Program-made: the position numbers and the translations under genes
Shown: positions 11,301 to 61,487 of the stretch, in pieces
Layout: every line of letters begins with the position of its first letter
Numbering within the stretch: the stretch's first letter is position 1
The notes under the pieces: model-generated
What the model saw: the letters and a program-made list of their open reading frames with translations, nothing else
The model's database searches: none
Told to the model about the DNA's origin: nothing
Source of the DNA: Labia minor
Taxonomy: Eukaryota > Arthropoda > Insecta > Dermaptera > Spongiphoridae
Assembly (NCBI GenBank): GCA_963082975.1
Contig: OY720344.1
Location: 92,820,538-92,884,537 of the forward strand
Direction: 5' to 3'
DNA length: 64,000 nt

Positions 11301-11925
11301 TACCGACCGACGATAGAAAGGGAGGTAATGTTTTCACTCCAAATTTCACATGTGGAGATTTTTACATATCTCTACGAATCATGCATTTTCTTAACAGAAA
11401 AAAGTATTTTTAGCATGATGTCTGTTCGTCCGTCCGTCCGTATAGATGTGTACAGCTTGAACGGCTCAACGAATTTTGATGAAATTTGGTATATTTACTT
11501 AATGCATCAGTATGATGAGTTGATCAACTTTTGGTGCAAATCCGGAAACTGGAAGTGGTAGTATTAGCGATCGACGAAAGGAGAAGGGAAGGGTTATTTT
11601 CACACCAACTTTCACATGAGGAGATTTTTTACCATCACCACAAATCATGCACTTTGTATTGGTTTTATCCTCGAGAAAAATCATCTTTATTAGTTTTTTC
11701 TTAATTTAATATTATATGACGTCATCCAGCCCTTAATGACGTCACAACCTGGTCTTACATATATATTATAAATAAAATAAAATTAAAAATATTTATGTTC
11801 TATCCATATCTGTTTTTTATTACATAAATAGATATATTAAAATTATTTGAAATTGTTTCTGTAGCTTGAAATTAATTTACTTCAAACCGTCGGTCGGTTC
11901 GGATCTGGCCACAGGTCAACTTATT
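11301..11925 (+). repeat. family A, copy 1 (HINE-like)
   Basis: Full-length copy, 625 bp. It runs from ACCGACCGACGATAG through a CCGT tetranucleotide tract, GGATTTGCACC region and paired TGACGTCA sites to CGTCGGTCGGTTCGGATCTG and the terminal hairpin region ending GTCAACTTATT. The first 11 bases (ACCGACCGACG) are a perfect inverted repeat of CGTCGGTCGGT near the 3' end. It holds two direct sub-repeats of ~85 bp (about 11305-11390 and 11566-11650). No coding capacity. Confidence 0.85.
11717..11744. promoter_or_regulatory. paired CRE/ATF palindromes in family A copy 1
   Basis: TGACGTCA at 11717-11724 and again at 11737-11744, starts exactly 20 bp apart. TGACGTCA is the full CREB/ATF site. Binding is inferred from sequence only. 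Confidence 0.4.
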
Positions 11926-12205
11926 TAGATTTAATTATAAATAATTTAATTTTGTTTAATATAAATAAAAAGAAAAAATATAACATCTTATTTAAAATAT
12001 AGACAAGTACAGGTGTCAATATAATTTCAGAATTTATATTATTATCAGTAATGATTCTTAAACGAAACAGTGTATAAGCAAGCTATTGTGCTACTTAGAA
12101 AAATATAAAACAAACTATTTAATTATAACAGCATATATATATAATATAGGATCAAATATTTTATCAAGTAAATTTGAATATATTTTTCATCTTGAAATGA
12201 AAATC

Positions 12206-12384
12206 AAGTTATTTTAATAAATTTATACCATTTTAGGAAAAAAATTTTTAATGGGTTATTTTTTTTTTTGAAAACCCATTTAGCAATTGTAATAAATAAT
12301 TAAAAAATTGTAAAATTTTCAAGTTTATAATAATAAATTGTATAAATTCTTTAAAGGGCCGAGCGATAGCTCGGTGTTCCAGGT
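12206..12384 (+). repeat. family C, copy 5 (plus orientation)
   Basis: Inverted match to 4912-5092. The 3' end is CCGAGC-GATA-GCTCGG, a perfect 6-bp stem with a 4-base loop, followed by TGTTCCAGGT. It is joined directly to a short family A fragment. Confidence 0.75.
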
Positions 12385-12420
12385 TTTTACCGACCGACGA
12401 TAGTAAGGGAGGTATTGTTT
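12385..12420 (+). repeat. family A 5'-end fragment
   Basis: Only the first ~32 bases of family A (ACCGACCGACGATAGTAAGG, then AGGTATTGTTT) are present, immediately after the end of family C copy 5. The rest is missing. Confidence 0.75.
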
Positions 12421-12703
12421 AATATAATATTTCATTTAAGATGATAGTAATTCATGGATTATTATTTAAGTAAAAGATAAGCTATAGCTATATATTTACC
12501 TTACTTTATAAAATATACCATTTATTTTACTATAAATGTAAATATTAATTTCAATAATTTTCTCTAAATAAGTTTTTAATGCATATTACTTTTTTTCGTT
12601 CAGCAATAATCCAACATTCATCTAAATAAGTAACAAAATTATTAACTCTTGTAATTTAAGTACCTCATTCCCTTAAAATGTCAACCGAGAAGAAACTAAA
12701 AAA

Positions 12704-12736
<33 letters not shown>

Positions 12737-13673
12737 TAGTTATTTATTTATTTTAATTTATTTTTTTTCAATTTTTCTTTATTTACTTTATTTTATTATA
12801 AATAATTAATTAAAAAAAAAAAATTTACTCAAATTATAGATAAGTAATTGAAAGACCAACATTGTAATTACACCAATCTTTGTATAATATCATGGATGTA
12901 AATAGATCGATAAAAGAAAAATAATAAAGAGAGCATGATCTCTTTGAACCTATTCAATCGAACTCGGGATGAATCGAATTGAATTGTAGTTAGACTCTCA
13001 TCAATTGCAAGTTTGTTCCAATTCTGGTCGAAAGTCAATTGCGTTGGAATTGAAGAGCCTTGACAGAGAGGTGAGTGTCAGTTTTTCGGCATCCCCAGCG
13101 GTCGCCCCATGGTCACGAGAGCTGCCCAATTGGCCCGGGCCGAAGCCAATTGCATATCATTGCGAAGTTGATTGCTAGTAGCTCTACTTGATGGACACCG
13201 CGGCTCTCAAATAGACAACCATTACCCTTGGACCAAATGCCAAGATCAAGGACGCTGCATGATAAAATACAACCAATTCTAGGAGCCGTTCAAATAGAAC
13301 GCAGCTTTTATAAAAGGGCTCTTCTAAAGAAATAATAAACAGGCTAAAATAACTGGTTGGCGGCAACTTTCTTTCTTTTCTTTTAAATGCCATTCTGCCA
13401 GCTAATTTGCAAAGAACTACCGTAAGGAAGTCTGAAAAGTGCCAATTTTAGACATTTAAAAATACCTCCTTAAATTACCTAACTATTTATTTGTTTGTTT
13501 ATTTTTTTTTTTTAATTTAATTGAATGAAATACACACCAATGGATTTGTTAGTAAATACCGAAAAGTTACTTATGAAATTTATTCAATGAAATTACGGAC
13601 CAGACTTAAATTAATTAAATTAAATATCCATTAAATATATGTTGGTTTAGATTTCCGTGAATTTTATTACTAT
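12421..13673. other. A+T-rich spacer followed by a unique less A+T-rich island (12950-13430)
   Basis: A TA-rich simple tract lies at about 12710-12740. From about 12950 to 13430 base composition is balanced, with repeated CAATTG motifs, a good splice donor (GAGAG then GTGAGTGT at about 13069) and a TATA-like box downstream. No frame is clearly coding on either strand. It could be a 5' exon/promoter region or conserved non-coding DNA. Confidence 0.35.
13309..13316 (+). promoter_or_regulatory. possible TATA box
   Basis: TATAAAAG followed by GGCTC inside the balanced-composition island. In a genome this A+T-rich TATA matches are common; only the TATAAAAGG form and the island context give it weight. 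Confidence 0.2.
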
Positions 13674-14142
13674 TATTATTGTCAGATTTATCCGGGTTTT
13701 TATCCCGTATTTTTGTGAGTTTGTTTTCTCGACGTTTCGGCGCTCAATTTGGCGCCATTTACAAGAGGTTATTTAGGTGGGAATTAGTCTGTGCGACCAA
13801 GAGTCGATATCGGGATTCCGAGTTGTTTTTTTTTGGTTCACTGCATTGCTGTGAAGTTCCGAAGAGTCCTGAGCACTGAAACTGACACTGACACACATCT
13901 GCACTTAACTTGACAACAGCCTGAAGTTGACTCTTTGGAACTTCACAGCAACGCAGTGAACAAAAAAACATCTCGGAATCCCGATATCGAAACTTGGTTG
14001 AACAGACTAAAAAACCTAGAACCCCAAAAATATTCCTAACTAAATAACCTCTTGAAAATGGCGCCAAAATTGACGCCGAAACGTCGAGAAAACAAACTCA
14101 CAAAAATACGGGATAAAAGCCTGGATAAATCTGACAATAATA
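13674..14142. mobile_element. foldback element with ~190-bp inverted arms
   Basis: The left arm starts TATTATTGTCAGATTTATCC and the right arm is its inverted copy ending GGATAAATCTGACAATAATA. The arms pair over most of their ~190 bp, including TTCTCGACGTTTCGGCG, GGCGCCATTT, GATATCGGGATTCCGA and CACTGCATTGCTGTGAAGTT. A ~90-bp spacer separates them. TA dinucleotides flank both ends. Each arm holds the CGAAACGTCG motif common in Penelope-like element termini. No coding capacity. It could be a TA-inserting MITE or a pair of inverted Penelope-like terminal repeats. Confidence 0.8.
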
Positions 14143-14962
14143 TATAGCACATATATGGTAAATCATTAATTTTCTTTCTTTAAAACTCTTTTTTAAAATC
14201 AATATATCGTACGTATTTTAATATTATATAATTAAAAATAAAGAAAAGTAAAATTGATATAATTTTGAGTAATTATAAATAGTTATAATTGTTAACTTTT
14301 GAATATTATTCGTTAATAAAAATAACAATGATTAAAAGTAATTTGAATCGTGATTTTTCACGGCATATGAAGATGAAAAAGAAATGAATTATTTAATAAG
14401 TACTTAAGTTGTAATAAATTAAATTGAAGTGATCTTGCTTATAAGGTTGGATGATTTTAATTAGTGCAATTTATATTATGACCTTGTTATTTAAAATTTT
14501 TATTTAGATCTTTAAAGTTAAGTAGATAATATATATGTTTGACCATGGATAGATAGATGAAAAGTATCATCAATCCCATTTCAATTTTTACCATTCTATT
14601 AAGTTGTTTCAATTGCTAATTATAATTACCTGAATAATTAAACTTCATGAAAAGGGAAAATCATAAAGACTAAATAAAAGTTAATACTTACAAATTAAAT
14701 ACGATAATATAAGGTCACTTCTGAAGTAGATAGTTATTTAAAGAGTTTAAGGTTAGAAAAAAATACTCTACCAGCTGTAAGTTTTATTATTAAATAAATA
14801 AAATAATTAATTTTATGAAAATAAAATTTTGTTTATATTATTATATTAATAATTTAAGAATAAAAAATAATAAGAATAAATTAATATTGAATTATATTTT
14901 CATTTTTCTTATATATAATTTTGGAAGGAAGCCAAGTTTATTCTTCACAAAAAATATATTAT
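14143..14962. other. A+T-rich spacer
   Basis: No gene or repeat recognised. The open frame from 14815 runs into the family A copy and has no family signature. Confidence 0.55.
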
Positions 14963-16196
14963 TACCGACCGACGATAGTAAGGGAGGTATTGTTTTCACA
15001 CCAAATTTCACATGTGGAGATTTTTACATATCTCCACGAATCATGCATTTTCTAAACAGAAATTAGCTGGAGTGTCTCCACTCGACTATCTCGCAATTTG
15101 AATTGGATTAAATAACATAATATATTATATTTAAATTAAATTTAATTAATTATAAATTATAAATAATAAATAATAAATATTAAACCAGCACATGTTTGGC
15201 TTTTTGTTGATGGCACCACGTCACGTGTTGGCGCGTGAGATTTGCAGTGTTAAAAAATTAATTCATTCTAGCTCAAGCTGAAATTCTATATATAGCAGTT
15301 TTATACAATTATTAATCATGTGAAAAATTATCAAACATATATCTTTATTTTTACGGTCACTTTAGAGGAAAAAAAATCAAAACGTTGTAGGTAATGACCC
15401 TCTTCCGGTTGAGCTACATTTCTCAAAAGTTGATAGAAAACTATGAATTTTGAATAATGTCCATGTACCAAATTTCATCATTCTAGCTCAAACCGTTTTT
15501 GCGTAATCTTGCCTACATACACACACACACACACACACAGACATTTTTCTCAACCTTAGTGAAAATGATTCAGGAACCTTCAAAACGTATAAAAACATCA
15601 AAATCTCAACATCGAAAATTTTCGTGATCGCAATACTATCTCTGACGAGATAGTAAAAAGTATTTTTAGCATGATGTCTGTCCGTCTGTCCGTCCGTCCG
15701 TCTGTCCGTCCGTATAGATGTGTACAGCCTGAACGGCTCAACCGATTTTGATGAAATTTGGTATATTTACTTAATGCATCAGTGGGATGAATTGATCAAC
15801 TTTTGGTGCAATTCCGGAAACCGGAAGTGGTAGTATTAGCGATCGACGATAGGAAGGAAAGGGTTATTTTCACACCAAAGGAGATTTTTTTATATATCAC
15901 CACGAATCATGCACTTTGTATTGGTTTTATCGTCGAGAAAAATCATATTTATTAGTTTTTTCTTGATTTAAAATTATTTTACGTCATTCAGCCATTCATG
16001 ACGTCACAGCCTGGTCTTGCATATATATTATAAATAAAATAAAATTAAAAATGTTTATATTTATTATTTATGTATCCATATCTGTTTTTTATTACATTAA
16101 TAGATATATTAAAATTATTTGAAATTGTTTCTGTAGCTGGAAATTAATTTATTTCAAACCGTCGGTCGGTTCGGACCTGGCCACAGGTCAACTTAT
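14963..16196 (+). repeat. family A, copy 2, split by family B copy 2
   Basis: Family A bases 1-100 (14963-15062) are separated from the rest (15656-16196) by family B. Without the insert the copy reads as a normal element, ending AAACCGTCGGTCGGTTCGGA and GGCCACAGGTC. It shares with copy 7 (37945) the loss of the TTTCACATGA segment after CACACCAAA, the phrases GTGCAATTCCGG and TTATCGTCGAG, and a longer CCGT tract, so the two form a subfamily. Confidence 0.85.
15063..15655 (+). repeat. family B, copy 2 (nearly full length), nested in family A
   Basis: Runs from CTGGAGTGTCTCCACTCGAC to GACGAGATAGTA. Features in order: subterminal ACTATCTCGC; a body with CACCACGTCACGTG and TATATATAGC; an (AC)n tract at about 15519-15538; CTCAACCTTAGTGAAAATGA; and the terminal hairpin ACTATCTC-4-GAGATAGT. 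The extra bases at the junction are only a few A residues, so no clear target duplication. No coding capacity. Confidence 0.85.
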
Positions 16197-17294
16197 TAAT
16201 TTTTGGTGAACTGTTATTTTACTGATTATTTTTTAAACACTATTTAATAAATTAATAGTCACTAATACATTAGAAAAGAATTTAACAATATATGTTCAAG
16301 TTAATTCATTCTTGAATTAATTGAAAACAAAAAATAAACATCAATTCAATACATTATTGTCTTTGTAACATGCAAATAAGAATAAATTGTTTCTCTCTAA
16401 ATGATCTAAAAAAAGAGGTTAACTGGTTGATCCTCTATTATTTGTTAACAATTTAAGTTTTTTTCTGTTTTTCAAAATGGAAAGTAATTTTATTTTTTGT
16501 ATTATATTAAATGAATACAAAAATAATTGAGAAAAATGAAAGTTTTGTTGTAAGTCAGTAAAATACAATTAAAATAAGTTATTGTAATTTGAAATGAATT
16601 TTCACTTCTAAAATTTATTTTTTCATTTTAGTAATTTAGTATTGTGAAAAAATTTAAACAAAAGTATTAGGTTCAATTTTGATAATTTCTTAGAAACTTT
16701 AAATCACTTAAATTAATTAAATTAATACTCTCTCAAATCTCAAAGGATCTCAATATATCAATATCTATAACATAAAAAAATAAAATTTCAACTCTGTTAA
16801 TTTTGCTTTAAACTGAACCCAGTTTGATGCAGACATGGTCACCTCACACATAATCTTTCTATTTTAATTATTTGTTAATTTATTTATTTCCTGAAAATTT
16901 TATTTGATCTATTAATATTATACTTAATAGTCTATAAAATTCAAATGTTCTATTCTCAAAAGCATCAACACAGTGCAAAAATTAGCATTATTTCTTTGAT
17001 TCTATTCTATCAAAAAAAGTCTAATTTATCGTGACTATGGAATTAGGGATATTTTTTCCCACGCATGGAATTTTCTCAGAAATCATTTTTAAGGTTCTTC
17101 TCTCGCATTAGAAAAGAATCACATCCACCTACACCAAAAGCGACAATCTCTTTGAAAAATAAAATGAAGCTTGAATATATAATATCAAAAATGAATTCAT
17201 TTAACATTCGAACTAATATCTCTAATCAAAATGCATGTCTTTTCATTTAACACTTTTGATATTTATGGAATACACAATCTGTAGATTCTATTCA

Positions 17295-17341
<47 letters not shown>

Positions 17342-17952
17342 GTATAAATAATTTAGATCTTCAATATAATGTTAGATGCATAAAATTTAAAAATTCATCT
17401 TAATGAATTGATTAAATTATCAGAATATTTATAAAATTTTTATAATAATAAAATATAATTTATTGATCTATATTTATGAGGTGCTAGTGAATTTGAAAGT
17501 TCTTAGCTGCAGGAATTGAAATCTTTTCTTCCATGTTCTAGTCTTTCTTTTCTTCGATTGCCTCTTATCTCTATCTATATTTTATATTGTTTGTCCACTC
17601 TGTCCTGTTCTTAGTCTCTTCACGTGGTATTAGCCAGCTAGCCTTTCGTCACTCAATCGGGCCACCAAAGAAACCTCCTCAATTTTATGACTATAACTAC
17701 AAGAATAATTTTCTAAGTAATAACCGTGTAGTAATAAAATAATAAGAAAATTATTTATTAACATCAATTTTTACAAAAAAATAAAATATGATTATTTTTT
17801 TACTTTTCTAAATAACCTCCACTACTACTAAACATTTGTTTATTTGAATATATTTGGGTTCAATTATAATTAATTAATATATTTAATAAACTCTTCAATT
17901 TTGATAATAATTTAGAACAACATTTTTAATTTTAACTATGAATTAATTAATT
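16197..17952. other. A+T-rich intergenic
   Basis: No gene. A less A+T-rich stretch at about 17480-17690 includes GAAAGTTCTTAGCTGCA, which echoes GAAAGTTCTTGGCTGCA near 20119, so part of it is probably an old dispersed repeat. Confidence 0.5.
17299..17338. repeat. (TA)20 microsatellite
   Basis: Uninterrupted TA dinucleotide run of 40 bp. Confidence 0.95.
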
Positions 17953-17967
17953 AAAATAGCTAAATAA

Positions 17968-18253
17968 AAAAAAAACCTTTGACTTTTGTACGTCCTACGC
18001 ATGGACAAAAGGCCTATCAAGTCGGTTATATCAATGAGGTGTCCTATATGATCAGTAGAACGAGTCCTATCAATCTTTTCCTTGATTTACTTGATCGGAG
18101 CCGCTAATTTTTATCAAGTAGCTCCCCAATGTTGATCCCGGAGGCTGAGTCCCATAGACCCCAGATAGAGAAATTCCCTTGCCAGGTCCGGGACTTGAAC
18201 CTTGGACCACGAGAATGTGAGTCAGCGACGCTAGCCTCTCACCCTGTAGAGCC
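17968..18253 (-). mobile_element. tRNA-derived SINE, copy 1
   Basis: On the minus strand: a tRNA-like head with an A-box region (GAGGCTAGCGTCGCTGAC) and the Pol III B box GGTTCAAGTCC (18191-18201); a body with AAGGGAATTTC and TCTGGGGTCTATGGGAC, then CTACTTGATAAAA; and an end in ACAAAAGTCAAAGG plus an oligo(T) run. Target duplications AAAATAGCTAAATAA flank it at 17953-17967 and 18257-18271 (15 of 15), so this is a fairly recent retroposition. The tail is oligo(T), not poly(A), in all three copies in the window. Confidence 0.9.
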
Positions 18254-18271
18254 TTCAAAATAGCTAAATAA

Positions 18272-19142
18272 TTATTTTAAAAAAATATTTATTTGAAATT
18301 TTTAACATGCATTAGTAATAGTAATAGTATTTCAGATAAATTTAAAAAAAATTCATCTAAATATTTCTAGGAAAATGAAATAATTTTATGATAGCGTATT
18401 AAAATTTTTAAAAATAATAAAAGTAATGTTATCTATTTGAAAATTCATAAAATTTAATTTAAAAAAAAACTACTCGATATTAAAATAGTATAATTAAAAT
18501 AACTTGAAAGATTAAAACGTAGGGGAGACTTTATTACACCTATATAAAACTAATTATATACGAGTGAGAATTTATTTCATTTTGTATCTGATCTTCGAAT
18601 AGAAATACTAATTATAATAGGTTGAATATTCATTTTATTCATCATTAATATAAATATAAATATGGAAATATAAATAAAAATAATAGTAATAAATGAAAGA
18701 CGTTGACAAATTGGATATGTGTGCAAATGAATTAGTGAACTTTAGGAAATTCAAATTGCCATACACAAATAATTCTTATAATTATATAATAATAATAATT
18801 TAATTTCATAATATCAGAAAATAAATTATATTACAGATGATATATATATTTAAATTTTCTTTTCTATCATGCTTATATATATTATTATAAAATGAATCCC
18901 CTTAAGCATCCTCCTTAATATATGTATACTTTCCAGATCAATTTATCATATTAAACATGAAAAGTGAAATGCTTTCTTTAAGTATATATGAGTAATATTT
19001 TATACAGGTACCCATATTATAAAATAATTTTTATAATTACATATAATTATTAGAAATGTAATTACTTATCAATAAACTAGATACTTTTTAAAGAATAAAT
19101 AATTAAATTTTTTTACTATTCCTTTCATTTCTTTATTTTTTT
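18272..19142. other. A+T-rich spacer
   Basis: No gene or repeat recognised. Confidence 0.55.
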
Positions 19143-19776
19143 TACCGACCGACGATAGTAAGGGAGGTATTGTTTTCACACCAAATTTCACATGTGGAGA
19201 TTTTTACATATCTCCACGAATCATGCATTTTCTTAACAGAAAAAAGTATTTTTAGCATGATGTCTGTCCGTCCGTCCGTATAGATGTGTACAGCCTGAAC
19301 GGCTCAACCGATTTTGATGAAATTTGGTATATTTACTTAATGCATCAGTGGGATGAATTGATCAACTTTTGGTGCGAATCCGGAAACCGGAAGTGGTAGT
19401 ATTAGCGATCGACGATAGGAAGGGAAGAGTTATTTTCACACCAAATTTCACATGAGGAGATTTTTTTACATATCACCTCGAATGTATTGGTTTTATCCTC
19501 GTGAAAAATCATCTTCATTATGTTTTTCTTAATTTAAAATTATATGACGTCACCCAGCCCTTCATGACGTCACAGCCTCGGGTAACGCCGGGTAACGCCG
19601 GCTACTCCAGCTATATATTATAAATAAAATAAAATTAAAAATATTTATGTTATATGCCTATATGTTTTTTATTACATTAATAGATATATTAAAATTATTT
19701 GAAATTGTTTCTGTAGCTGGAAATTAATTTACTTTAAACCGTCGGTCGGTTCGGACCTGGCCACAGGTCAACTTAT
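19143..19776 (+). repeat. family A, copy 3
   Basis: Full-length copy (634 bp) with intact 11-bp subterminal inverted repeats, CCGT tract, both sub-repeats and the terminal hairpin GACCTG-GCCA-CAGGTC. It carries an insertion absent from other copies at about 19578-19611: GGGTAACGCC twice in tandem followed by GGCTACTCCAGC. Confidence 0.85.
19545..19572. promoter_or_regulatory. paired CRE/ATF palindromes in family A copy 3
   Basis: TGACGTCA at 19545-19552 and 19565-19572, again exactly 20 bp between starts, as in copy 1. Confidence 0.4.
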
Positions 19777-19845
19777 TTAGAACAAGATAAAATAATTATA
19801 TTCATTTTTTGCTTAATTTATAAAACATATTTTATTTTTATCGAA

Positions 19846-20705
19846 TACTAGCTATTCAGACCGCCTTCGGCGTTCTTCGCACCTAGACAGGGGCTCTGCC
19901 CCTTGTACCCCCGAAGTAATAGATGTTATTTGGTTGAAAGTGTTTAGTATATGTAAAAGGTTATCATCCATTTTGTTTCAATCAGTATATTGCATAAAAC
20001 TTTCATTTGTTTTTGTGTTCTTATTTAAAATATATATTAATTTAATTAATAAATGAATTATATATTATTATTATATATGTTATATCTATCTACCTATCTC
20101 TGTGGCTTCTCAGTACTCGAAAGTTCTTGGCTGCAACAACCACATTTCTGCAAATGTCCTTATCCGGAGCTCCTACCCTGTCCCATCTCTTCACGTTCCT
20201 TCCTACATTGTCCACCCTTATTAAAAACTTACGTGAAAATCCAATTATGAGATCATAACTAAAATTATTTATTCATATAATCTTAAAAATTAAAAAAGGT
20301 AATATAGTCGAAATGTGAATGTTTTCAGTGTGTTAAATAAGTTAAAAAGAACAATATGATGAATTGAAATATTGTAAATATTAGAAAAATAAAAATATAA
20401 ATATTATAAAGATTCTTTGTATAGTATTCTTTTCGCTGCTGAATGGCAACATGTACATATGAAATTTTAAAAAAATAATTTCTGCAGTTATTAATCAGAT
20501 GTTAATAAAATTTATAGCCTATGTTCAAATAGAGATATGTAAGAAAATTGTGAGTAATTTCATCCAAATCGGTTCAGTCAATTTTGAGTCTATAACATTA
20601 GAATTTCCAGACCTGCAGACAGAATGACAGACATGAAAAATTCTAAAGTCACTTTTGGATTTTAGAGGTCACATAAAACGCGAAGAGATGCAAAAAATTT
20701 TAAAT
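19846..20705 (+). repeat. retroposon-like repeat, family E
   Basis: Begins TACTAGCTATTCAGACCGCC, then TTCGGCG and GGGGCTCTGCCCCTTG. It ends with a block typical of many arthropod RTE/SINE-type repeats: ATTTCATCCAAATCGGTTCA, a 'cagac' run and TTCTAAAGTCACTTTTGG. The middle contains GAAAGTTCTTGGCTGCA. I infer one old dispersed element of about 850 bp; only one copy is visible, so both ends are uncertain. No coding capacity seen. Confidence 0.45.
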
Positions 20706-23650: not shown

Positions 23651-24200
23651 TTGAAGTGTCTCCATTCGAATTTCTCGCAATTTGAATTGGATTAAATAAC
23701 ATATATTATATTTAAATTAAATTTAATTAATTATAAATTATAAATCAAAATTAATAAATAATATTAATTAAACCAGCGCATGTTTGGCTCTTTGTTGATG
23801 GCACCACGTCACGTATGGGGCGTGATTTGGAATGTGTTAAAAAATTAATTCTGGTATTTTCAGCGAATAAATCAAGCTGAAATTTTATATATAGCTGTTT
23901 TATACCATGTGAAAAACTGTGTGAAAAACTATCAAACATATATCTTTATTTTTATGATCAGTTTAGAGGAAAAATTCTCAAAAGTTGATAGAAAACTACG
24001 AATATGAATAATACCCGTGTACCAAATTTCATTTCAATATTTTAGCTAAAACCGTTTTTGCGTAATCTTGTCAACATACACACAGACATTTTTCTCAACC
24101 TTAGTGAAAATGACTCAGGGACCTTCAAAACGTATAAAAAAATCAAAATGTCGACATCGAAAATTTTCGTGACCGCAATACTATCTCTGGCGAGATAGTA
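23651..24200 (+). repeat. family B, copy 3
   Basis: Close to full length (550 bp): GAAGTGTCTCCATTCGAA at the left, CACCACGTCACGTA in the body, a short AC tract, and the terminal ACTATCTC-TGGC-GAGATAGT hairpin (perfect 8-bp stem). The segment between the TATATATAGC block and AAAAGTTGATAGAAAACTA is shorter than in copy 2. Confidence 0.85.
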
Positions 24201-24395
24201 AATAAGAACAAAAAATGTTAATAAAGGGAACGAAAAAATCCTCAGCTAATCAATCATTTAAATTACTTATATAATTTTTAACATTTTTATCAAAAATATA
24301 AAACTTCTAAGAGGTTGAAACTTAAACCCGAACTCATTGAATTTTATTAAAATTTTAAATGAGAATAAACCCAATTATTACAATTAATAAATAAA

Positions 24396-24969
24396 ATAAG
24401 TTGACCTGTGGCCAGGTCCGAACCGACCTACGGTTTGAAAAAAATTAATTTCCAGCTACAGAAACAATTTCAAATAATTTTAATATATCTATTAATGTAA
24501 TAAAAAACAGATATGGATACATAAATAATAAATATAAACATTTTTAATTTTATTTTATTTATAATATATATGTAAGACCAGGCTTTGACATCATGAATGG
24601 CTGGATGACGTCATATAATTTTAAATTAAGAAAAACCTATAAAGATGATTTTTCTCGAGGATAAAACCAATACAAAGTGCATGATTCGTGGTGATATGTA
24701 AAAAATCTCCTCATGTGAAATTTGGTGTGAATATAACCCTTCCCTTCCTATCGTCGATCGCTAATACTACCACTTCCGGTTTCCGGATTTGCACCAAAAG
24801 TTGAGGAATTCATCTTACTGATGCATTAAGTAAATATACAAAATTGCTGTACACATCTATACGGACGGACGGACAGACATCATGATAAAAATACTATTTT
24901 CTGTTATGTAAAAACCTCCACATGTGAAATTTGGTGTGAAAACAATACCCTTACTATCGTCGGTCGGTA
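24396..24969 (-). repeat. family A, copy 4
   Basis: Minus-strand copy, 574 bp, from ACCGACCGACGATAG (right) to the hairpin GACCTG-GCCA-CAGGTC (left). It has internal deletions around the CCGT tract. One of the two TGACGTCA sites is intact (in GGATGACGTCATAT), the other decayed. Confidence 0.85.
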
Positions 24970-25197
24970 AAAAACATTTTAATTAATATAATATAATTTA
25001 TCAAATTTATTCAATAATCTATTTGAAATTCCTTCCTTTATATGATGTTAACTTCATGAAAATTTTTTTTTGGGTGGTGGAATGATAAATTTGTAATTCG
25101 TAATTTGATTTTAAAATATTATTAGAATAAATATTTTTAATTTTATTATGAAATTAAATAAAAAATTTTAAAATATTTTAAATATAAAAAAATATTA
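24970..25197 (-). repeat. family D, copy 2
   Basis: Inverted match to about 11045-11300, including the CCACCACCC tract, the AAGTTAACATCATATAAA block and the final TTAATTAAAATG before family A. It lacks about 15 bp (around CCAAGAATATTAAA) present in the other copy. Confidence 0.85.
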
Positions 25198-25398
25198 ATA
25201 GTAAATATACCAAATATCATCAAAATCCGTTGAGCCGTTCAAGCTGTACACATCTATACGGACGGACGGACGGACAGACATCATGCTAAAAATACTTTTT
25301 TCTGTTAAGAAAATGCATGATTCGTGGAGATATGTAAAATTCTCCACATGTGAAATTTGGTGTGAAAACAATACCTCCCTTACTAACGTTGGTCGGTA
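25198..25398 (-). repeat. family A, copy 5 (5' 200 bp only)
   Basis: Minus-strand piece covering the first ~200 bases of family A, up to TTTGGTATATTTAC, where family D begins. The terminal motif is slightly changed (ACCGACCAACG). Confidence 0.85.
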
Positions 25399-27407: not shown

Positions 27408-27765
27408 AATAAGTTGACCTGTGGCCAGGCGCAGAACCGAACGACGGTTTGAAATAAATTAATTTCCAGCTACAGAAACAATTTCAAATAATTTAAATGA
27501 TCTATTAATTCAATAAAAAAACAGATATGCATATAACATAAATAGTTTTAATTTTATTTTATTTATAATATATAAGTTGAGCTGACCGTGACGTCATGAA
27601 GAGCTGTGTGTCGTCATATAATTTTAAATAAAGAAAAAACTAATGAAGATGATTTTCCCGAGGATAAACCAATACAAAGTGCATGATTCGTGGAAATATG
27701 TAAAAAATCTTCTCATGTGAAATTTGGTGTGAAAACAATACCTCCCTTACTATCGTCGGTCGGTA
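27408..27765 (-). repeat. family A, copy 6 (358 bp, internal deletion)
   Basis: Both ends are present (ACCGACCGACGATAG and the CCTGGCCACAGGTC region), but the ~260 bp between the two direct sub-repeats is gone, leaving one hybrid sub-repeat. This is the product expected from recombination or slippage between the sub-repeats. One TGACGTCA remains. Confidence 0.85.
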
Positions 27766-27879
27766 AAAATATAAGTATACAAAAAACATATCGTGTGATT
27801 GGAGAATCAAATTTTTATATTTTTTATACCCTTTCATTGATAATTTTCTATTTAACAAAAATAAATTACAATTAATTTT

Positions 27880-28753
27880 TACTATCTCGCTAGAGATATT
27901 ATTGGGATTACCAAAATTTTCGATGTCGAGATTTTGATGCTTTTATACGTTTAGAAGGTCCCTGAGTCATTTTCATTAAGGTTGAGAAAAATGTCTCTTT
28001 CTCTCTCTCTCTTTGCGTGTGTGTATGTAGACAAGATTACGCAAAAACGATTAGATCTAGAATAATGATATTTGGTACAGTGGTATTATTCAAAATTCGT
28101 AGTTTTCTAGCAACTTTTAGAAAAGTAGCTAGGTCTTTCGGAATAGGGTCATTAACTACCACGTTTTCATTTTTTTCCCTCTAAACTGATCGTAAAAATA
28201 ATGATATATGTTTGATAGTTTTTCACATGACTAAAAATTGTATAAAACTACTAGATATATATAGAATTTCAGCTTGATTGACGCGCAGCACGTGACGTGG
28301 AGCCATCAACAAATAGCCAAGCACGCGCTGGTTTAATAAATATTATTTATTAACTTTAATTTATAATTTAATTAATTAAATTTAATTTAAATATAATATT
28401 TGTTATAAGGCGCCATTGGATGTGTGGGTAGCGAACCTGCCTCACATTCACATAGCCCCGGGTTCAAGTCCCAGGCTTGGCAAGGGAATTTCCCTAGCTG
28501 GGGTCTATGGGAAGGAGTCAACCCAGCCTCCGGGAATAACATTGGGGAAAAGCTACTTGATAGCGCCTCCGATCAAGAAAATCAAGGTAAAGGTTGAGAG
28601 GATACGTTCTACTGACCATAGGACACCTCTTTGATATAATCGGCTTGATAGGCGTTGTCCTTGCGTAGGACGTACAAAGTCAGAGGTTTTTTTTAATATA
28701 TGTTATATTTAATCCAATTCAAATTGCGAGATAGTCGAGTGGAGACAATCCAG
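27880..28753 (-). repeat. family B, copy 4, split by SINE copy 2
   Basis: The minus-strand 5' end is at 28753 (CTGGATTGTCTCCACTCGAC) and the hairpin end at 27880. The element is interrupted at 28409-28694 by a SINE; removing it leaves a near full-length B. The microsatellite here is a mixed CT/GT tract near 27995-28026. Confidence 0.85.
28409..28694 (+). mobile_element. tRNA-derived SINE, copy 2, nested in family B
   Basis: Starts GGCGCCATTGGATG, has the B box GGTTCAAGTCC at 28461-28471 and the same body as the other copies, and ends GTCAGAGG plus T8. Target duplications AATATTTGTTATA (28395-28407) and AATATATGTTATA (28695-28707) agree at 12 of 13 and are family B sequence. The head differs from copies 1 and 3 between the start and the B box (GTGTGGGTAGCGAACCTGCC), suggesting a subfamily. 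Confidence 0.9.
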
Positions 28754-29413: not shown

Positions 29414-29667
29414 TATGTGCCACTCAGAAGCCAAAGCGATTAACTCCACATTTAAAGAAACTAAGAAAATGAAGCCTAATGTTCACAGCTTGTAGAAAAT
29501 TCAGGTTTATTGATCACAGAAAAATCTATATATCATTCAAATATTAAGATTATCAAGTTCATTATTCACTTCATATTTTGCAGATTACCTTACCTTACAT
29601 TACATTACATTACTAGCAAAATTTTAACAATTGGGGTTATTCGGTTTGGCTTCTGAGTGACACATAT
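29414..29667. mobile_element. MITE with ~22-bp inverted ends
   Basis: The left end is TATGTGCCACTCAGAAGCCA and the right end inverted is TATGTGTCACTCAGAAGCCA. The interior (about 210 bp) is non-coding and includes a CCTTA/CATTA repeat tract near 29590-29612. Flanks are TA-rich, so the target duplication cannot be sized. Superfamily unknown. Only this copy is in the window. Confidence 0.7.
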
Positions 29668-30903
29668 AGTATTAATTTAAAAATAAAAATAAAATAATAG
29701 AAATTTAAGATTTTAATATAATCAATCACATTGAAATAAAATAATTGTAATGTGATAACTGATAACATAAGACTTTTAACAAAATAATAAATATCACTTG
29801 GTTGGTCCAGGGAATAGGATAACTGCTGATACATATAAAATCAATATTATTATTATAATTATTATTATTATGACCACTTTGATTATATCTGACATAATTG
29901 GAAAACATGTTGAATATGTGCCCGTGTTTTAAGTTTTTTCAAATCCAACACCCTCCCCCCTTTTAATTGATTTTATTATCTTCTTGAACAGCGTCGGCGT
30001 TCTTATAATCTTGTGAGGACGGTCATCCGTAAGATCTTGTATCCTTGTCGTTTTTCAAGGCAGTGTAATTAAGGGAGAATAATTTAACGTCCCTTTTAAA
30101 GGTCAGTGAACTTAAGGTTTGAAACGAAATTAATAGACCCACGAAAGGGAGGGGATTTTCAAACGAGAACCAAGAATTTTTTATATAGGATTTGAATCAC
30201 ATTTTTCAAGGTGGTAAATATACAAAGTTAACGACGTGGTTTTAATATTATTGGTAATATTTTTAATTAAAATGTAACAATATTAGAAATAAAATTTATT
30301 TTATTGTGTGTTTTATTATATACATTTAATATATTCATTATGATATGAAAATGAATCATTTGTTTTTGTGGTTTAAAATATAAAGTAATTATCTCTATAT
30401 AAAATTGATAAATAAATATAAAATTTTAATTTTGTGATTAAATTGGTATATAATAAGAATTGATTGAGTTTTTGATATATAAAGGTTATTTTCAATTATA
30501 TAATATAATAAAAATTAATATTTTTTCATTGTTTATTTGGTAATATAATTCAATTAATTAATGCATATAATTTAGTTTAATTTTTTAATGTTACAAAAAA
30601 AAACAACTATCTAATTAGTTTTATATTTTTTATGGAGAGAGATGTTTTTTCAAATATATATATATAATATATAATAATATATATATAATAATTTTCTTGA
30701 CGACTTTCTCCATCTTTTAACATTCACAGGTTTTTTTTATTATTTAATTTAAATTAATATTTTTTTTCTCCCCAGATGGTTAAACTTAATTTTTTCTCAT
30801 CACGAAAGAAAATCATCTAAGGAAAAAAAACACACGATGAAATAATATCCTCTCGTCTTTCTTCATAGAAATTATAGTTCTTTTGTATTTATCTAGCATA
30901 AAA

Positions 30904-30937
<34 letters not shown>

Positions 30938-33630
30938 GAATAGAGCGAGATTTTTTTTTTATTTTGGGAAATTTTTCATTTGAAAAGCAAATAAAGTTAG
31001 AGTTAGATGTGAGGGTGGTGGGAGATTCTGCTTGACGTGGTAAAACTTAAAGAAAAATAACAAATTTGTGTGCACATGGGATATCCTTGTGAGTTCCGAA
31101 TGCTTATCTTGGATCGTGTCAACGAACCCAATTGAAGTCAATAAGCACAAAGCCGCGCATGGCCGTTCCGTTGACGAATCCCTACTGAAGAGTCCATCCT
31201 TTTCGGACTAATTCAGTGGGCAGAGAGCGGGGGATGTCATGAGAGAGAGAGAAAAAAAAAATAAAATTCAAATAAACAAACAAAAACATTTTTGAAAAGA
31301 AAAAAAAAATTATCGTCATAAACATCATTTTATCAATAAAAAAAAAAAAAAAAATTAAAAATGTACTTACTATAGAACTTGGGTGTTTTAATATATGATA
31401 AAATGCTAATAAATTTTACTTTTCATTCACAAAAAATTTAAAGGACAATTCTTATTAATACACGTCAATAAAGAATGATCTTATATTGCATTAGTTTTCC
31501 GAGTCATTTCGTGAAAAACTTAAAACATATCGTTTAACAATCACCGTTTTCACCAGATCAAACACCCTTCAATTCATGACGATTCATTAAGCTTAAAAGA
31601 AGGCTCCAAGGCTACAAGGCCGAATTGAAGAAAAAGTATTGATGGCCATCCCAGTAAAAATATCTCTGATACAGATAGAATACTAAGATTGCAATAAAAT
31701 TAATTTATAATATTAGAGAAAATATTTTTTTTTTATTTTATAAATCAATTTAATTTTTCTTTGTTTACTGTGTAAAATTTTATTAGACGAATAAAATATA
31801 ATTATTTAAGAAAATTTAATGATATTTCTCATACATTTTGGATATAAAATAAAGATAAATAATTTTGGGTTTTATTTTTAACTAAATGATAAATATTATT
31901 ATATATTGATAAAAATTTATGAATTTATAGATTTCAATTGGCAAATAAATCACAATTATATTTAATTATCTTTATGAAATATGTGATATTAGATGACCTT
32001 GTTTTAACAACTATTTATTTAGAAAATATATTAAAAATAAATAAGAAAAATACTAGATCTAAATGATCTATATATAAAATGTACTCTACTAATTTATTTA
32101 ACAAATATTTTACAGCAGAATAATTCTTTGTCTCCTACTAATGATATAAGAACATGCCAACATTCTTTTTTTATAAGAAGTCACAATTTATTTAAAGTTT
32201 CAATTTTTTTATATACCTTGAAGATAAGTCAATTCTTTGTTGTTTTCTTTTAAGAAAATAATATCATTTTCTTGGAAATATTTTATGATGAAATGATTGC
32301 CAAAATGAAAGACATCCTCGTTATGATAAGGAAATCATTTTTTGTTTCTTCTAAATAAACCATCATTTATTAAATTCTTACTAACAATTTAAATTTCAAA
32401 CTTTTTTTAAAAAAAAAAAGTTTTCAAATAATAATCAACAATGATCGTTGAAAAGGAACAAGATTATTAATTGGGTATGTAAAGAAGTAAAGGGTATCCT
32501 TAAAACTTTTTAAAAGACGAAGAAGAGGATGTTTTAAGCAAAAAAAAAAATAAAAATAAAAAATAAAAAAAATTAAGCCAAGCGGAAAGATCAAACTCAT
32601 TACTGGATTTTTAGTGAAGTCATCAAAAATGAAACGGAAAGAGGGAAAAAAAACGAAATACGTTGTAACATTTAAAAAGAGTATTATAGAAAATGAAAGT
32701 AAAATGTTAAAATTAATAATTATAATAATTTATAATAATACTAAGAAAAATCTATTAATACAAATACAATCAAATTGGGTTTGAAATGAAATGAGTAATG
32801 AAAATATAAAATTTTAAATAAAATTGACATTCTCCCTATGTATATAAAACATGTTTACAAGTCAAAAATTCAATCACCTAGAAATTTTACTTTGATTTAT
32901 TCATATAGGTATAGATTGAATGATTTAAAATTGAGTGAAAGAAGGGAGAAAATGTAAAGCAAAATTGACATTCATTTTATGCCTTTTCTCATTTAGTCTT
33001 CATTTGGTCAGGAGTTTCATCCCCCTGTATCCCCTAAGTGATGCAATATATTTTTTTTAATTTAATCATTATATTAATCAAAGTTTAATTTATAATAGAA
33101 TACAATTACTCTTTAATATTTATTTTAAAATAATTTCGAATAATAATAATGGTTTAAATGAAATGTTATGATATCTAAAGAGAAGAGGATTTTTTTAATG
33201 TAATCATACTAAAAACAAACTATTTTAATGTTTTACAAATTTATAGTTAAACTCAAAAATAAACATTGAATAATGCTAATTTAAATAAATTGATTTATTT
33301 GTATGTTCTACCTTCATTTCGCTTCGACTAACACTAATTATATATTATATATATAAATAGATGGATTTTATATAAATAAAATATACAATTTAATTTTTTT
33401 GATTAAAATTATTTACCAAATTTTAATTTTTTAATAAATATTTATTATGTCAATTAAATTTGTGACAGTCCCCTTTTGACTATGCAACTACTTTTTTTTG
33501 ATCCAAGATTGATTTAATAAAGAAATATTGTTGCATAAACACCAGGGGCACATCCCGAGATCACTGTTTTATAAGGATAATGAAAAAAAAAATAGAAACA
33601 AACAAGAAGAAAGAGTATAATTATAAAAAT
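29668..33630. other. A+T-rich intergenic with unexplained islands
   Basis: Less A+T-rich islands lie at about 29940-30180 and 30960-31240. The second contains GTGTCAACGAACCCAATTGA and GCCGCGCATGGCCGTTCC. No frame is convincingly coding and no second copy is seen, so these are candidate regulatory or exon DNA. The rest is simple sequence, with long A-runs near 31250-31360 and 32540-32570. Confidence 0.45.
30914..30937. repeat. (GATA)6 microsatellite
   Basis: Six GATA units following a GAAA-rich stretch. Confidence 0.9.
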
Positions 33631-34057
33631 CTGGAGTGTCTCCACTTGACGATACAATCAAGCTGAAATTCTATATATAGCAGTTTTATACAATTTTTAA
33701 TCATGTGAAAAACTATCAAACATATATCTTTATTTTTACAGTTAGTTTAGAGGGAAAAAAAAATCAAAACGTGATAGGTAATGACCCTCTTCTGGACGAT
33801 CTACATTTCTCAAAAGTTGATAGAAAACTACGAATTTTGAATAATACCCGTGTACCAAATTTCATTTCATTATTCTAGCTCGAACCGTTTTTGCGTAATC
33901 TTGTCTCACTCACACACACACACACAGACAGACAGAGAGACAGACATTCTTCTCACCTTATTGAAAATGACTCATGGACCTTCAAAACGTATAACATCAT
34001 AAAAATCTCGACATCGAAAATTTTCGTGATCGCAATACTATCTCTGACGAGATAGTA
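33631..34057 (+). repeat. family B, copy 5 (internally deleted)
   Basis: Begins CTGGAGTGTCTCCACTTGAC, then jumps over ~230 bp to the CAAGCTGAAATTC block. The rest follows copy 2 to the terminal CTATCTCTGACGAGATAGTA. The microsatellite is a compound AC/AGAC tract at about 33910-33945. Confidence 0.85.
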
Positions 34058-35301
34058 AAAACTATTGATGCATATTATGTATGTATAATATTTCTCTCTT
34101 TATTTTTTCTTTGGTATTGACTAATAGGCCAACTAAATATCCCATTTATTTTTCTATTATTATTTACTCAAGAAAAAATAACTATTCTTTGGTAAAACTT
34201 GATGTCTGAGAGGCTACCCAATTTCTATTTATCTAATTAAAAAAAACCTTCAAGAGATGAAACGATAACTTTCTCTTTTTTTTAAAAGTAAATGAACGTC
34301 CCAAGACTTTTCCCCTACCTGGTTCTAAAAATATCTTAATGTATTTCATTTCGGCAGGAACCAGTTTAATTAGATGAGTCTGTGTTTATTTAAATTATTA
34401 TTTTTTTGGGTTAGGGTTATAGTTTTATGTATCAAATGGGTTATAGGGATTTAAAATAAAAAAAAAATGATTTTCAAAGATGACCTAATCTATTTATTTA
34501 TCATATACAACCGGAATTTTATTTAGGCTATATATATATATATATTTATATATCATAACATCAATTAATTAATTAAATAAATAAATTATCCTTTGTCATT
34601 TATGAAGTTCACATCAGAAGACAAACAATTATTTAAAATAATTAAAAATTAATCAAAAGATTATTTATTTGTAATTTCCTAAAAAAAATTAATTCTTTTT
34701 TTTAAATATTAAGTGAATTTGTATTTTTGTAATTTATATATAATCTTTTCTTAACTAGAGTAATCTAATGATAATAGGATAAGTTTAAATAAATGTACAG
34801 ATAAAATAATAATAATAATAATAAATTGAGCGATAAATATAAAAATAATATAATATTTTGTTGGTATTTTTATAAATTTAAATTTATTTATTCAAGAGTG
34901 AGTACGTGTCTTTTTATTATAACTCTTTTTTATAATAGAGATGGTAACATTTTATAACCAAGAAAGATATCAAAAAGAATACTTACATATTTACAAATAT
35001 TCATTCATTTTCACTTTTTTATAAATTTTATTCAAGTTTTCATTGGATGTTCCATTCACACTCCACCATACATACACTATCTAAATCCACTCATTGGTTA
35101 TAAATGTTATTAAATGAATAGAATGATATTCTGAGCTTTCCTTCTAAAACTTGGCAGATCTCACTACATTGTATATGTTAATGTCCTATTATAACATTTA
35201 TTCTTATGGGTTAAATAGAAACCATTAAAAATAAACATGATAAAAAGACAAGTGAAGCTTGAATATTTTGTAAAATTTTTCACAATTTATATTAAAAAAA
35301 A
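34058..35301. other. A+T-rich spacer
   Basis: No gene or repeat recognised. Confidence 0.55.
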
Positions 35302-35569
35302 GGCGCCACAGGGTGAGAGGCTAGCGTCGCTGTCTCGTGGTTCCGGGTTCAAGTCCCGGATCTGGCAAGGGAATTTCTCTAGCTGGGGTCTATGGGACGG
35401 AGTCAACCCAGCCTCTGGGATCAAAACTGGGAAGCTACTTGATAAAAAGTAGCGCCTCCGATCAAGAAAATCAAGGTAAAGGTTGATAGGACCCGTTCAA
35501 CTGATCATAGGACACCTAATTGATAGGCGTTGTCCTTGCTTAGGACTTACAAAGTCAGAGGTTTTTTTT
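35302..35569 (+). mobile_element. tRNA-derived SINE, copy 3
   Basis: Starts GGCGCCACAGGGTGAGAGG, A-box region GGCTAGCGTCGCTG (about 35319-35332), B box GGTTCAAGTCC (35346-35356), body as in the other copies, and ends GTCAGAGG plus T8. Flanks ATATTAAAAAAA and ATATTGAAAAATA suggest an imperfect target duplication. This copy has the cleanest head of the three. Confidence 0.9.
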
Positions 35570-37944
35570 CCATATTGAAAAATAATAATCAGTAAAAATC
35601 ATAGATTATGCTCAATTTTTATATTAATTTGTAAAAATGAGAATATATATTTTTTTAAATATATAAATAATATATATTTTAATTGTATTGCTAATTAATT
35701 GTACTATTATTATACATATACAATTGTGTAAAACAAATTTATTAACTAGTTCATTTTATTTCAGCTTCTAACCATTACCTTTTCGTAAATATTATCCTTT
35801 TTATCGTTTTTAATTATGCTGGCAATAAAAAAAAATTTCGTTCATTAGTTTAACACAGCCTCGGCGGATGAATAAAAAGACAATAAACAAACATTAGTCA
35901 ACCTACATTGAATTTGTTCATGGAAAATTGTAAGAAATAAATTTTTACATCATTTTTTTTTATTTATTTTCAATTTCTTACTTATAAATTTTTTTTTTTT
36001 TTAAACTATATTTTTTTGTTGGATACTGGATTCTTATAAAAAACAATTACTGAACTTTAAAAATACCTAATATTTTATTATTAATATCTATTCTTAATGA
36101 ATGAAAGAGTTTTAACAAAAAAAAATAAATAAATAAAAAAATTTTAAATTCTAATTTTGTACAAAGAAAACAAACAAAAAAAGAATAACTAGATTGAATT
36201 ATTGAAAACACCTAGAATATTTGTAATATTTCGAGCTGGCATACTGCGTAGAAGAATTTCTCTCGAAATTAATTTTTAATTTTTGGAGTGTGAATTCAAG
36301 AAGGATCCATTATCTTTCCTCATTTACAAGCATTTTATTCAATGGCATGCCAGAGTAAATTTGAGCAAAAAATGCAAAAAAGAGGAATTTCTACTCTTAA
36401 TAAAAATTAATAAGTATAATATATGATTATTATTGATTGATTTTTTTACAAAATATACAATTACCTATTAATAATACTTAAATAAAAAAGTTTTCTTAAA
36501 ATATGACTATTAATATAGGTAATATGGTTATAAAGAAATTGTTTAAATCATAATTTTAAGAAATTATTAAAATGAAAATTATTTATAATGAACTGAAAAT
36601 CGAAAATTTTTTATTATTCTCACTAAAATTGTTATTTTCACTAAAATTTAAGCGATTTGGTTTTTGATCAGGAGCCTTCTCAGCAAAAAATAACAATATT
36701 AGATCTTGAGAGTCTTTACAGTCTTGAAGAATATTCGTTTTCAACAAAATAACAACGTTTGAGTTCCTGATGAGGACTCTCTTCAGTGAAAAATAACAAT
36801 ATTAAGTCTTGGACTCACCGGGAGAGGCTTGATCATGCACAGAAACGTTGAAATTTTGATGAAAGTGAAAATAAAAGTATTATTTCTTTCTTTCCTTCAC
36901 TTCCTATTGGCTGCCTGCCTGTCGTCTTTCAATTCTTTATTCTAATCAATAGTATTCTAAAATTATTTATCTTTACCTTAAAGTGATGTAAGTTTATTTT
37001 ATTTTGTTAAATTTATTTTTCGTTAAATCAAAAAAAAAAAAAATTATTTCCCAAACGAAATTTAAAATATAAATATCTTTAATAATAAAAATCAAAAGAT
37101 GGGTCACTCAAGTAGAAAATTAAAAATATTGAATTGAAATGGAGTAGAAAGCTTTGGAAAATATTTTTAAGTTTCATTGATGAACATTAGGAAAAAGAAG
37201 TAAAAAATTTTCAAAGACGATCCGTTGCCTATTAAAGAATTCCATTCAAATTTTCAACCACCCTACAAAACAAGTTTTAGTTTTTTTTAACCATACCACT
37301 CAGACAAAAGAACGAAGCTAAAAATCAAATGCTATTCTTTTTTTATTTGAAAAAATTTATTCAGGGGAGAATTATATCAAAACACTTATGTCGTTTTAAA
37401 AGAAATGATACTTAAAAGTGAAGAGATAATAATTATAATATTTTCTAATACTTTCTCCAATATTTTCTTTTTATTTAAATATATTTTTTTTACTTCAGTA
37501 TCAAAAATAAAAATAACTGAATATATAGTTAGTCTAATTTAATATATATACTAATTATCAAATTTTTAAATTGATTTTCTCAAATATTAAATATTTTTTA
37601 TTGATGCTAATTAAATAAAATATTTATTATATTAATAGATTCCTTTATAAATATACAGATATTTATATAATAATTATTTTAATAAATATCAAATGGAGGA
37701 TAATAACAAATCTAGTTCATCTGCACTTGAGGAAATTTAATTTACAAGTGATGAATTGAATTGTTTATCAATTTTTCAATATATCTAATATAATAAGAGG
37801 ATTGGGGGATTTTCCAATTGATTATCTTTGCAAAACACTTCTTTAATTGTGTTAAAAATTTATTTATAAATTATACAAAACCGTGAATATTTACATATAT
37901 AATTTTATTTATTTCTGCTCTGTAATTATTATCTATATTCTTTT
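35570..37944. other. A+T-rich intergenic
   Basis: No gene. Contains the Penelope-like scrap listed separately. Confidence 0.5.
36650..36880 (+). mobile_element. Penelope-like terminal-repeat fossil, possibly duplicated
   Basis: Two related blocks: TTTTTGATCAGGAGCCTTCT with CAGCAAAAAATAACAATATT (about 36659-36702), and AGTTCCTGATGAGGACTCTC with TTCAGTGAAAAATAACAATA (about 36761-36812), followed by CACAGAAACGTTGAAATTTT near 36838. 'CTGATGAG ... GAAA' and 'GAAACGTT' are hallmarks of Penelope-like termini and their hammerhead motif, here only partly kept. No reverse transcriptase nearby. Confidence 0.4.
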
Positions 37945-38596
37945 TACCGACCGACGATAGTAAGGGAGGTATTGTTTTCACACCAAATTTCACATGTGGA
38001 GATTTTTACATATCTCCACGAATCATGCATTTTCTAAACAGAAAAAAGTATTTTTAGCATGATGTCTGTCCGTCCGTCCGTCTGTCCGTCTGTCCGTCCG
38101 TCCGTCCGTCCGTATAGATGTGTACAGCCTGAACGGCTCAACCGATTTTGATGAAATTTGGTATATTTACTTAATGCATCAGTGGGATGAATTGATCAAC
38201 TTTTGGTGCAATTCCGGAAACCGGAAGTGGTAGTATTAGCGATCGACGATAGGAAGGAAAGGGTTATTTTCACACCAAAGGAGATTTTTTTATATATCAC
38301 CACGAATCATGCACTTTGTATTGGTTTTATCGTCGAGAAAAATCATATTTATTAGTTTTTTCTTGATTTAAAATTATTTTACGTCATCCAGCCATTCATG
38401 ACGTCACAGCCTGGTCTTGCATATATATTATAAATAAAATAAAATTAAAAATGTTTATATTTATTATTTATGTATCCATATCTGTTTTTTATTACATTAA
38501 TAGATATATTAAAATTATTTGAAATTGTTTCTGTAGCTGGAAATTAATTTATTTCAAACCGTAGGTCGGTTCGGACCTGGCCACAGGTCAACTTAT
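37945..38596 (+). repeat. family A, copy 7 (652 bp)
   Basis: Full length, with the longest CCGT/CTGT tetranucleotide tract in the window (about 38062-38113). It is nearly identical to copy 2 outside that tract, sharing its deletion and substitutions. Subterminal repeat slightly changed on the 3' side (CCGTAGGTCGGT). One TGACGTCA intact. Confidence 0.9.
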
Positions 38597-54788: not shown

Positions 54789-61075
<6,287 letters not shown>

Positions 61076-61487
61076 GTAAGTCGATATTTTTCTATTTTAT
61101 TTTTTTTAGAACATTACCTTAAACTGAAATAAAACAGGTTCAACCCAATCGAATATCTCTAAGACTTCTATTAGGAATTCAATAAATCGAGATGTGATGT
61201 CTACGTCACATTTGTTACTGAAACCTGTTTCAGCAATTAAAATGATATTTCCTTTTCATGTTTTTACGAACTTACATGAAATAACCACTTTAGAATGCCG
61301 TTATTTATTTACCAAAATATATTTGTCTATTAGAACAATTATGACTAATGACTAATTGATCAATAATTAAACAAAAAAATTATAAAAAAATAATTTGCTA
61401 AAAATTTCTGGATTTTTTAGTTCGATTGATCATGTGTCAGGCAAAGCTTGAGATTTTTGGGTTTTTGTCATTTGACCATTATATGAA

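Follow-up and report, generated by a model that had tools for sequence, protein, structure and literature searches.

Family A, an abundant HINE-like repeat of Labia minor, and its recurrent 29-nucleotide 5' stubs

A stretch of 64,000 nucleotides (nt) from Labia minor (assembly GCA_963082975.1, contig OY720344.1, positions 92,820,538 to 92,884,537 of the forward strand; hereafter the window) carries dispersed copies of a short repeat, family A, and a 29-nt piece of its 5' end standing alone. The locus raises two questions: what kind of element family A is, and how so small a piece of it came about. A sequence-only reading of the window had proposed a new family of HINE-like elements, comparable to DINE-1 of Drosophila. 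The most likely identity of family A, according to the present analysis, is that of a non-autonomous Helentron (a DINE-1-like HINE) served by a Rep/helicase protein in trans, with its stubs derived from early stops of copying. It is a new family of a known kind, and the micro-copies are its unusual part. The earlier proposal agreed with the anatomy and the insertion behaviour, which matched those of published HINE/DINE-1 elements, and a Rep partner with A ends was not found in the stretches upstream of three Rep matches.

Anatomy and abundance of family A

The window contained six A copies with both ends, together with a 5' fragment some 200 nt long and a single 5' stub of 29 nt. Their positions, together with two inserted or intervening segments, were as follows.

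11302..11925, plus strand: A long form; 5' subterminal inverted repeat (subTIR) 11302-11312, 3' subTIR 11888-11898, hairpin 11902-11917 with one mismatch
12389..12417, plus strand: A stub of 29 nt (ACCG...TATTG), with five Ts before and three Ts after it, following the 3' terminus of a D-type repeat
14964..16197, plus strand: A long form, split by family B
15064..15655, minus strand: family B element, inserted at the ACTTTTTTCTG T-tract of A copy 14964
19144..19777, plus strand: A long form
24395..24968, minus strand: A long form, mosaic; the 5' part groups with copies 11302 and 19144, the 3' part with copies 14964 and 37946
24970..25199, minus strand: segment of 230 nt with homology to 11052-11300, the flank upstream of copy 11302, between an A fragment and an A copy
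25200..25397, minus strand: A fragment, about the first 200 nt, without the 3' part
27408..27764, minus strand: A short form, without the GTCY module
37946..38597, plus strand: A long form; microsatellite 38064-38113

The A copies extended from a T-run followed by ACCGACCGACG to CGTCGGTCGGTTCGGACCTGGCCACAGGTCAACTTATT, and single-base variants occurred. With at most one mismatch, ACCGACCGACG was matched 14 times in the window against 0.04 expected in shuffles, and the hairpin pattern at up to two mismatches was matched 6 times against 0.09 expected. The pairwise identity of the copies was 83-97% (19 listed pairs, gaps excluded and about 12 nt of flank included). In this window, whose G+C content was 20-29%, 3,824 bases were covered by family A and 2,710 by family B in BLAST comparison. 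The A copies first noticed by the sequence-only reading were thus confirmed as real by the motif matches, which lay far above shuffles, and by the pairwise identity, and several details were corrected. All seven of its copies were present, that at 25200 being a fragment, so that six had both ends, and its 32-bp stub at 12388 proved to be 29 nt plus Ts at 12389. The 11-bp subTIR ascribed to all full copies was present, its 3' member being exact in three of the six and carrying one mismatch in the other three. The internal CCGT microsatellite was absent, with the whole CCGT/GTCY module, from the short form 27408; the 3' hairpin near the end was present and imperfect in two of the six (11302 and 27408).

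Genome counts were made in the window's own assembly (604,477,936 bases). The 24-nt A 5' end (with one N) occurred 22,465 times and its reversed control 0 times, and the exact 24-nt 3' end occurred 16,936 times; the ratio of the two end counts is a weak guide, as local mutation also shapes both. The anatomy was then described in a wider sample of the loci L009-L048 and the window (333,540 nt), in which 5' ends, perfect ones especially, are enriched because loci were picked for listed exact 5' ends. With up to 4 mismatches allowed over 29 nt, this sample contained 70 A 5' ends; complete copies, of 351-652 nt, numbered 37. The 11-bp 5' subTIR stood at the element end and was exact in 36 of the 37 complete copies, and the 3' subTIR, exact in 26, lay internally, about 27 nt from the end and before the hairpin. 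The hairpin itself was situated 9 nt from the A end and was perfect in 31 of the 37. Across the six window copies the fold of the 3' end had z scores from -2.2 to -4.5; it was better than all 200 shuffles in four of them, and was matched by 6 and 8 shuffles in the remaining two.

Complete copies carried between 0 and 12 GTCY units, 31 of the 37 having at least 3, and five of the 37 were short forms (351-381 nt). A second, diverged copy of the family's own 5' end (about 71-88% identity) was contained in the long form. The two forms thus differ by the stretch that separates these 5'-end copies, which was either gained or lost. Because the median pairwise divergence of complete copies was 5.5% and that of the closest pair 0.5%, family A must have been active in the recent past. 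No coding capacity was found in A, and no stop-to-stop frame of more than 130 amino acids (aa) was found in the window, frames running off its ends being unlisted. Pattern scans of viral contigs and of other genome contigs yielded no A matches, in a kind of scan that may leave out near relatives.

Two of the window copies were linked to a composite structure. On the minus strand, the fragment 25397-25200 passed directly into the 230-nt segment with homology to the flank upstream of copy 11302, and this in turn into a complete A copy. This upstream flank was common to copies 11302 and 24395, the similarity stopped at the A 3' end with no match beyond, and independent insertion of the two copies was ruled out by the common flank. 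In copy 24395, the informative sites were first of the 11302/19144 type and then of the 14964/37946 type, the change falling between alignment columns 461 and 558. The mosaic and composite copies could stem from strand switching during copying, and would equally be produced by local deletion plus gene conversion.

T-tract insertion and 29-nt stubs

The sequence ahead of the A 5' ends was strongly biased. The T-run before ACCG had a length of 2 in 10 of the 70 ends and of at least 5 in 60, and was never 0, 1, 3 or 4, while a T-run of at least 5 preceded a random A in 105 of 8,837 control positions. Assuming independent ends, zero of 70 ends at T-runs of 3-4 had a probability of about 2e-13 under control runs of at least 2.

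Empty sites were evaluated for 45 insertions (37 full copies and 8 stubs), of which nine passed the filter and eight were kept: two sites in L009, one each in L016, L017, L026, L030 and L032, and the stub in L044. The L028_65 row, at a locus edge with a misplaced junction, was dropped, L042 and L036 were uncounted owing to identity below 85%, and L014 failed the filter, a T-to-A change being seen by eye at its site; within the window alone no A empty site was found. At all eight usable sites the joined flanks held exactly two T more than the best paralogue (95-99% identical), and L016 and L026 had a short T-run to the left and a longer one to the right of the element. Insertion without target duplication, as previously proposed, held to the extent that no duplication longer than TT was present; the two Ts gained at each site fit a TT duplication or Ts owned by the element alike, and the two cannot be told apart. 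The target could also lie within family A: its internal T-tract ACTTTTTTCTG was hit by A insertions in L009, L014 and L030, and by the 592-nt B element interrupting copy 14964 in the window.

The stub of the window was not a lone relic, a view that was ruled out by its recurrence. Eight of the 70 A 5' ends stopped exactly after ACCGACCGACGATAGTAAGGGAGGTATTG (L010, L027, L029, L037, L044, L046, L047 and window 12389). The eight stubs were identical over 29 nt and all ended before one internal T-tract; identity over the first 24 nt partly reflects the picking of loci, and the window stub was not picked. At least five Ts stood ahead of all eight and at least two Ts behind seven, and the sequence behind was different in each. 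Three stubs were embedded in a repeat (B in L027, C in L044 and an unnamed one in L037), and the repeat resumed right after the 29 nt and the Ts. In the consecutive stretch C1:247207-985807, for which all 32 listed A 5' ends were included, 5 ends were stubs and 27 ran on into A, 14 of the latter with a 3' end within 1.4 kb by a strict pattern. When the 5' end was lengthened, the genome counts decreased from 22,465 (24 nt) to 21,217 (31), 17,884 (38) and 17,311 (45), so that the drop across the T-tract was 15.7% compared with 5.6% and 3.2% at the neighbouring steps. The 38-mer missed 6 of the 32 consecutive ends, and 5 of those 6 were stubs. With T-tract length changes ignored, the excess drop suggested that the genome may hold roughly 2,100-2,700 stubs. 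The stubs were real, recurrent and located at T-tracts.

We infer a copying route in which a Rep/helicase protein in trans would nick the T-run/ACCGACCGACG end, one strand would be peeled off 5' to 3' up to a stop at the 3' hairpin, and the peeled copy would be joined into a T-tract. An early stop would lead to insertion of a 3'-shortened copy, and the early stop observed most often, at the T-tract 30 nt into the element, would give the 29-nt stubs. That the stubs are early stops is considered probable. Held more tentatively is the view that they are true insertion products, for which one A end (the subTIR plus 18 nt) may be enough for the start of copying and for T-tract joining, with neither the 3' hairpin nor the second inverted repeat, and which might themselves serve as templates for further stubs, as a micro-element of their own; it is placed lower since it makes the additional claim that a single end is sufficient and allows for re-copying.

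The main rival to the early stop, which we regard as unlikely, is that the stubs are full A insertions shortened later by a deletion from the internal GTTTT tract to the T-run behind the 3' end. Both breakpoints would then fall in T-runs, and T-tracts abound in A. Stubs also differed in their T gain: stub L037 gained five T relative to its best paralogue (87.8% identity), and stub L027 gained 0 or 2 T according to which B paralogue was compared, the T-tracts of these paralogues being of unequal length; both sites failed the filter. These two cases weigh against the preferred explanation, as do the three T gained by the full copy in L017 relative to 4 of 9 paralogues and the ends of other shortened copies. 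Among 18 such copies inspected, including nested hosts and inner deletions, L039 and a repeat common to L016, L023 and L024 ended at or close to another tract within A, around position 547, likewise the fragment in L051, and the copy in L034 ended in a T4 tract. Those in L011, L015 (two), L035, L043 and at window 25200 ended outside T-tracts, and none of the inspected copies ended at either of the T5 tracts, near position 58 and near position 106; a T-tract alone therefore does not explain the stop. The two T5 tracts at which no copy ended also tell against later deletion, which would have to reuse one breakpoint in all eight stubs, and the sole stub with a clean empty site had gained two T, as had the full copies.

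Nature of family A and its neighbours

A genome search for a Rep/helicase-encoding Helentron sharing both A ends had been named as a check. Rep genes with long frames do exist in the genome: the PF14214 profile gave at least 104 matches, some of them pieces of one gene, and several lay in open frames of 1,345-2,181 aa, more than one of these exceeding 1,600 aa and some having equal scores, while no match was obtained in 14 control genomes. In G000, five equal-scoring Rep matches lay on one strand at C5:46740114-46771612, spaced by 9,817, 9,817, 5,689 and 5,687 nt, which resembles a tandem array. Neither an A nor a B 5' end was present in the 2.2, 1.8 and 2.1 kb upstream of three Rep matches (L049, L050 and L051); other Rep matches may have such ends, or the true 5' ends may lie farther out. 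L051 contained an A fragment without its 5' end. Pfam searches of 9 of the 13 listed window frames returned a mariner-type piece and an NKAIN exon, and no Rep. That no autonomous element with A ends was found over the three upstream stretches counts against a Helentron origin. So does the 5' inverted repeat of A, only a 4-bp TACC/GGTA with a fold no better than shuffles where a nested repeat is typical of DINE-1, and so does the gained TT, as a possible 2-bp duplication.

The gained TT is one link to a miniature inverted-repeat transposable element (MITE) of a DDE transposon with TT target duplication, an origin that we consider improbable. Exactly TT was gained at 8 of 8 usable empty sites, formally a 2-bp duplication, and inverted repeats lie near both A ends. 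However, about 27 nt, the hairpin among them, separate the 3' inverted repeat from the end, a left T-run that is never 3 or 4 is odd for a free TT target, and the stubs hold only one of the two inverted repeats, the sole usable stub site being also +2 T. It is very unlikely that the stubs mark where some other long element begins, one with the same first 29 nt as A: ends are common to Helentrons and their HINEs, so an autonomous start could look alike, but the sequence behind the eight stubs differs each time and the host repeat resumes directly behind the 29 nt and Ts in L027, L044 and L037. Derivation from a canonical Helitron, defined in the consulted part of PMC4067079 by 5' TC, 3' CTRR and insertion between A and T, is equally remote, since A shares with it the 3' hairpin, the lack of a long target duplication and a genome with Rep genes, but has neither terminus and is inserted into T-tracts rather than between A and T.

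Family B is a second HINE-like family, with window copies at 15064-15655, 23652-24200, 27880-28399 with 28694-28753, 33658-34057 and 8621-8823. Its 5' end consisted of a T-run and then a 5' subTIR that enclosed a ACTATCTC-GTCA-GAGATAGT hairpin (z -4.3), a clear nested inverted repeat of the kind known from DINE-1; its 3' end carried CGAGATAGT and GGAGACACTCC, the 3' hairpin fold was no better than shuffles (z -1.1), and a GT/CT microsatellite was present. A possible B stub in L045 (3475, minus strand) comprised five Ts, the B 5' hairpin with one extra base and then unrelated sequence, and a short interspersed element (SINE)-like insert occupied 28400-28690 within a B copy.

Other repeats of the window were C and D (10783-11300, 6407-5450 on the minus strand, 5088-4911 on the minus strand, 4091-3965 on the minus strand, and 12201-12383), which carried, some 8-9 nt before their ends, the palindromes CCGAGCC-GA-GGCTCGG and CCGAGC-GATA-GCTCGG. 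D folded well (z -3.6) and the folded C stretch did not (z 0.4); an internal module was common to C and A. A foldback repeat (13674-13784 and 14032-14142) had 111-nt arms, 92% complementary and 247 nt apart. A mariner-type transposase fragment was located at 47099-47425 (PF01359, E 3.2e-13); the frame 45352-45633, with no Pfam match, resembled it by eye. An NKAIN exon match was located at 60806-61132 (PF05640, E 1.4e-14); together with the G+C content of 20-29%, it would fit an arthropod host.

Comparison with known systems

Taken alone, family A most likely adds just another HINE to those known, albeit one of very high copy number. Its recurrent first-29-base copies hint at how A copying starts and stops: if they are insertion products, they would narrow a Helentron-type start signal to 29 nt and reveal a preferred early stop, and, if truly so, hardly any natural transposition product of a eukaryotic element would be smaller. 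A limited literature search gave no report of such stubs, and their large number makes direct testing possible. To our knowledge, direct experiments on a preferred early stop or start signal have been made only for the distant Helitron Helraiser. Family A behaves like a HINE and has most of the published features, so that it most likely belongs there; a Rep partner with A ends would make the membership certain.

In the portions of the cited papers used here, DINE-1/INE-1 of Drosophila (PMC2374699) resembled A in having subTIRs of which the 3' one is clearly internal, a stem-loop a few nt behind it, a microsatellite in the 5' part ((CCGT)n(CTGT)n in DINE-1), no open reading frame, and insertion at TT, where the extra T may be a TT duplication or part of the element. 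The subTIR is 11 bp in A and 13 bp with other letters in DINE-1, the 5' inverted repeat is only weak in A, and 29-nt stubs are unmentioned for DINE-1 in that portion. HINEs of mite, mosquito and others (PMC4067079) shared with A the subTIRs near both ends, the 3' palindrome and a T-rich target with border Ts varying in number, and are described as inserting without target modification. The 3' subTIR lies about 27 nt from the end in A compared with 38-60 in mite HINEs, the 5' subTIR of A is not palindromic, and no same-ended Helentron was identified for A. Lepidopteran (GTCY)n elements (Coates 2011), counted as DINE-1-like by PMC4067079 and also cited in PMC9659126, are similarly short and carry (GTCY)n microsatellites, a likeness by description only. 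Helraiser, a Helitron rebuilt from bats (PMC4778049), is unlike A in being canonical, and no recurrent 29-nt product is described in the part of that source consulted. Its left end is indispensable, and its early stops give 3'-shortened copies, with the hairpin acting as the stop signal.

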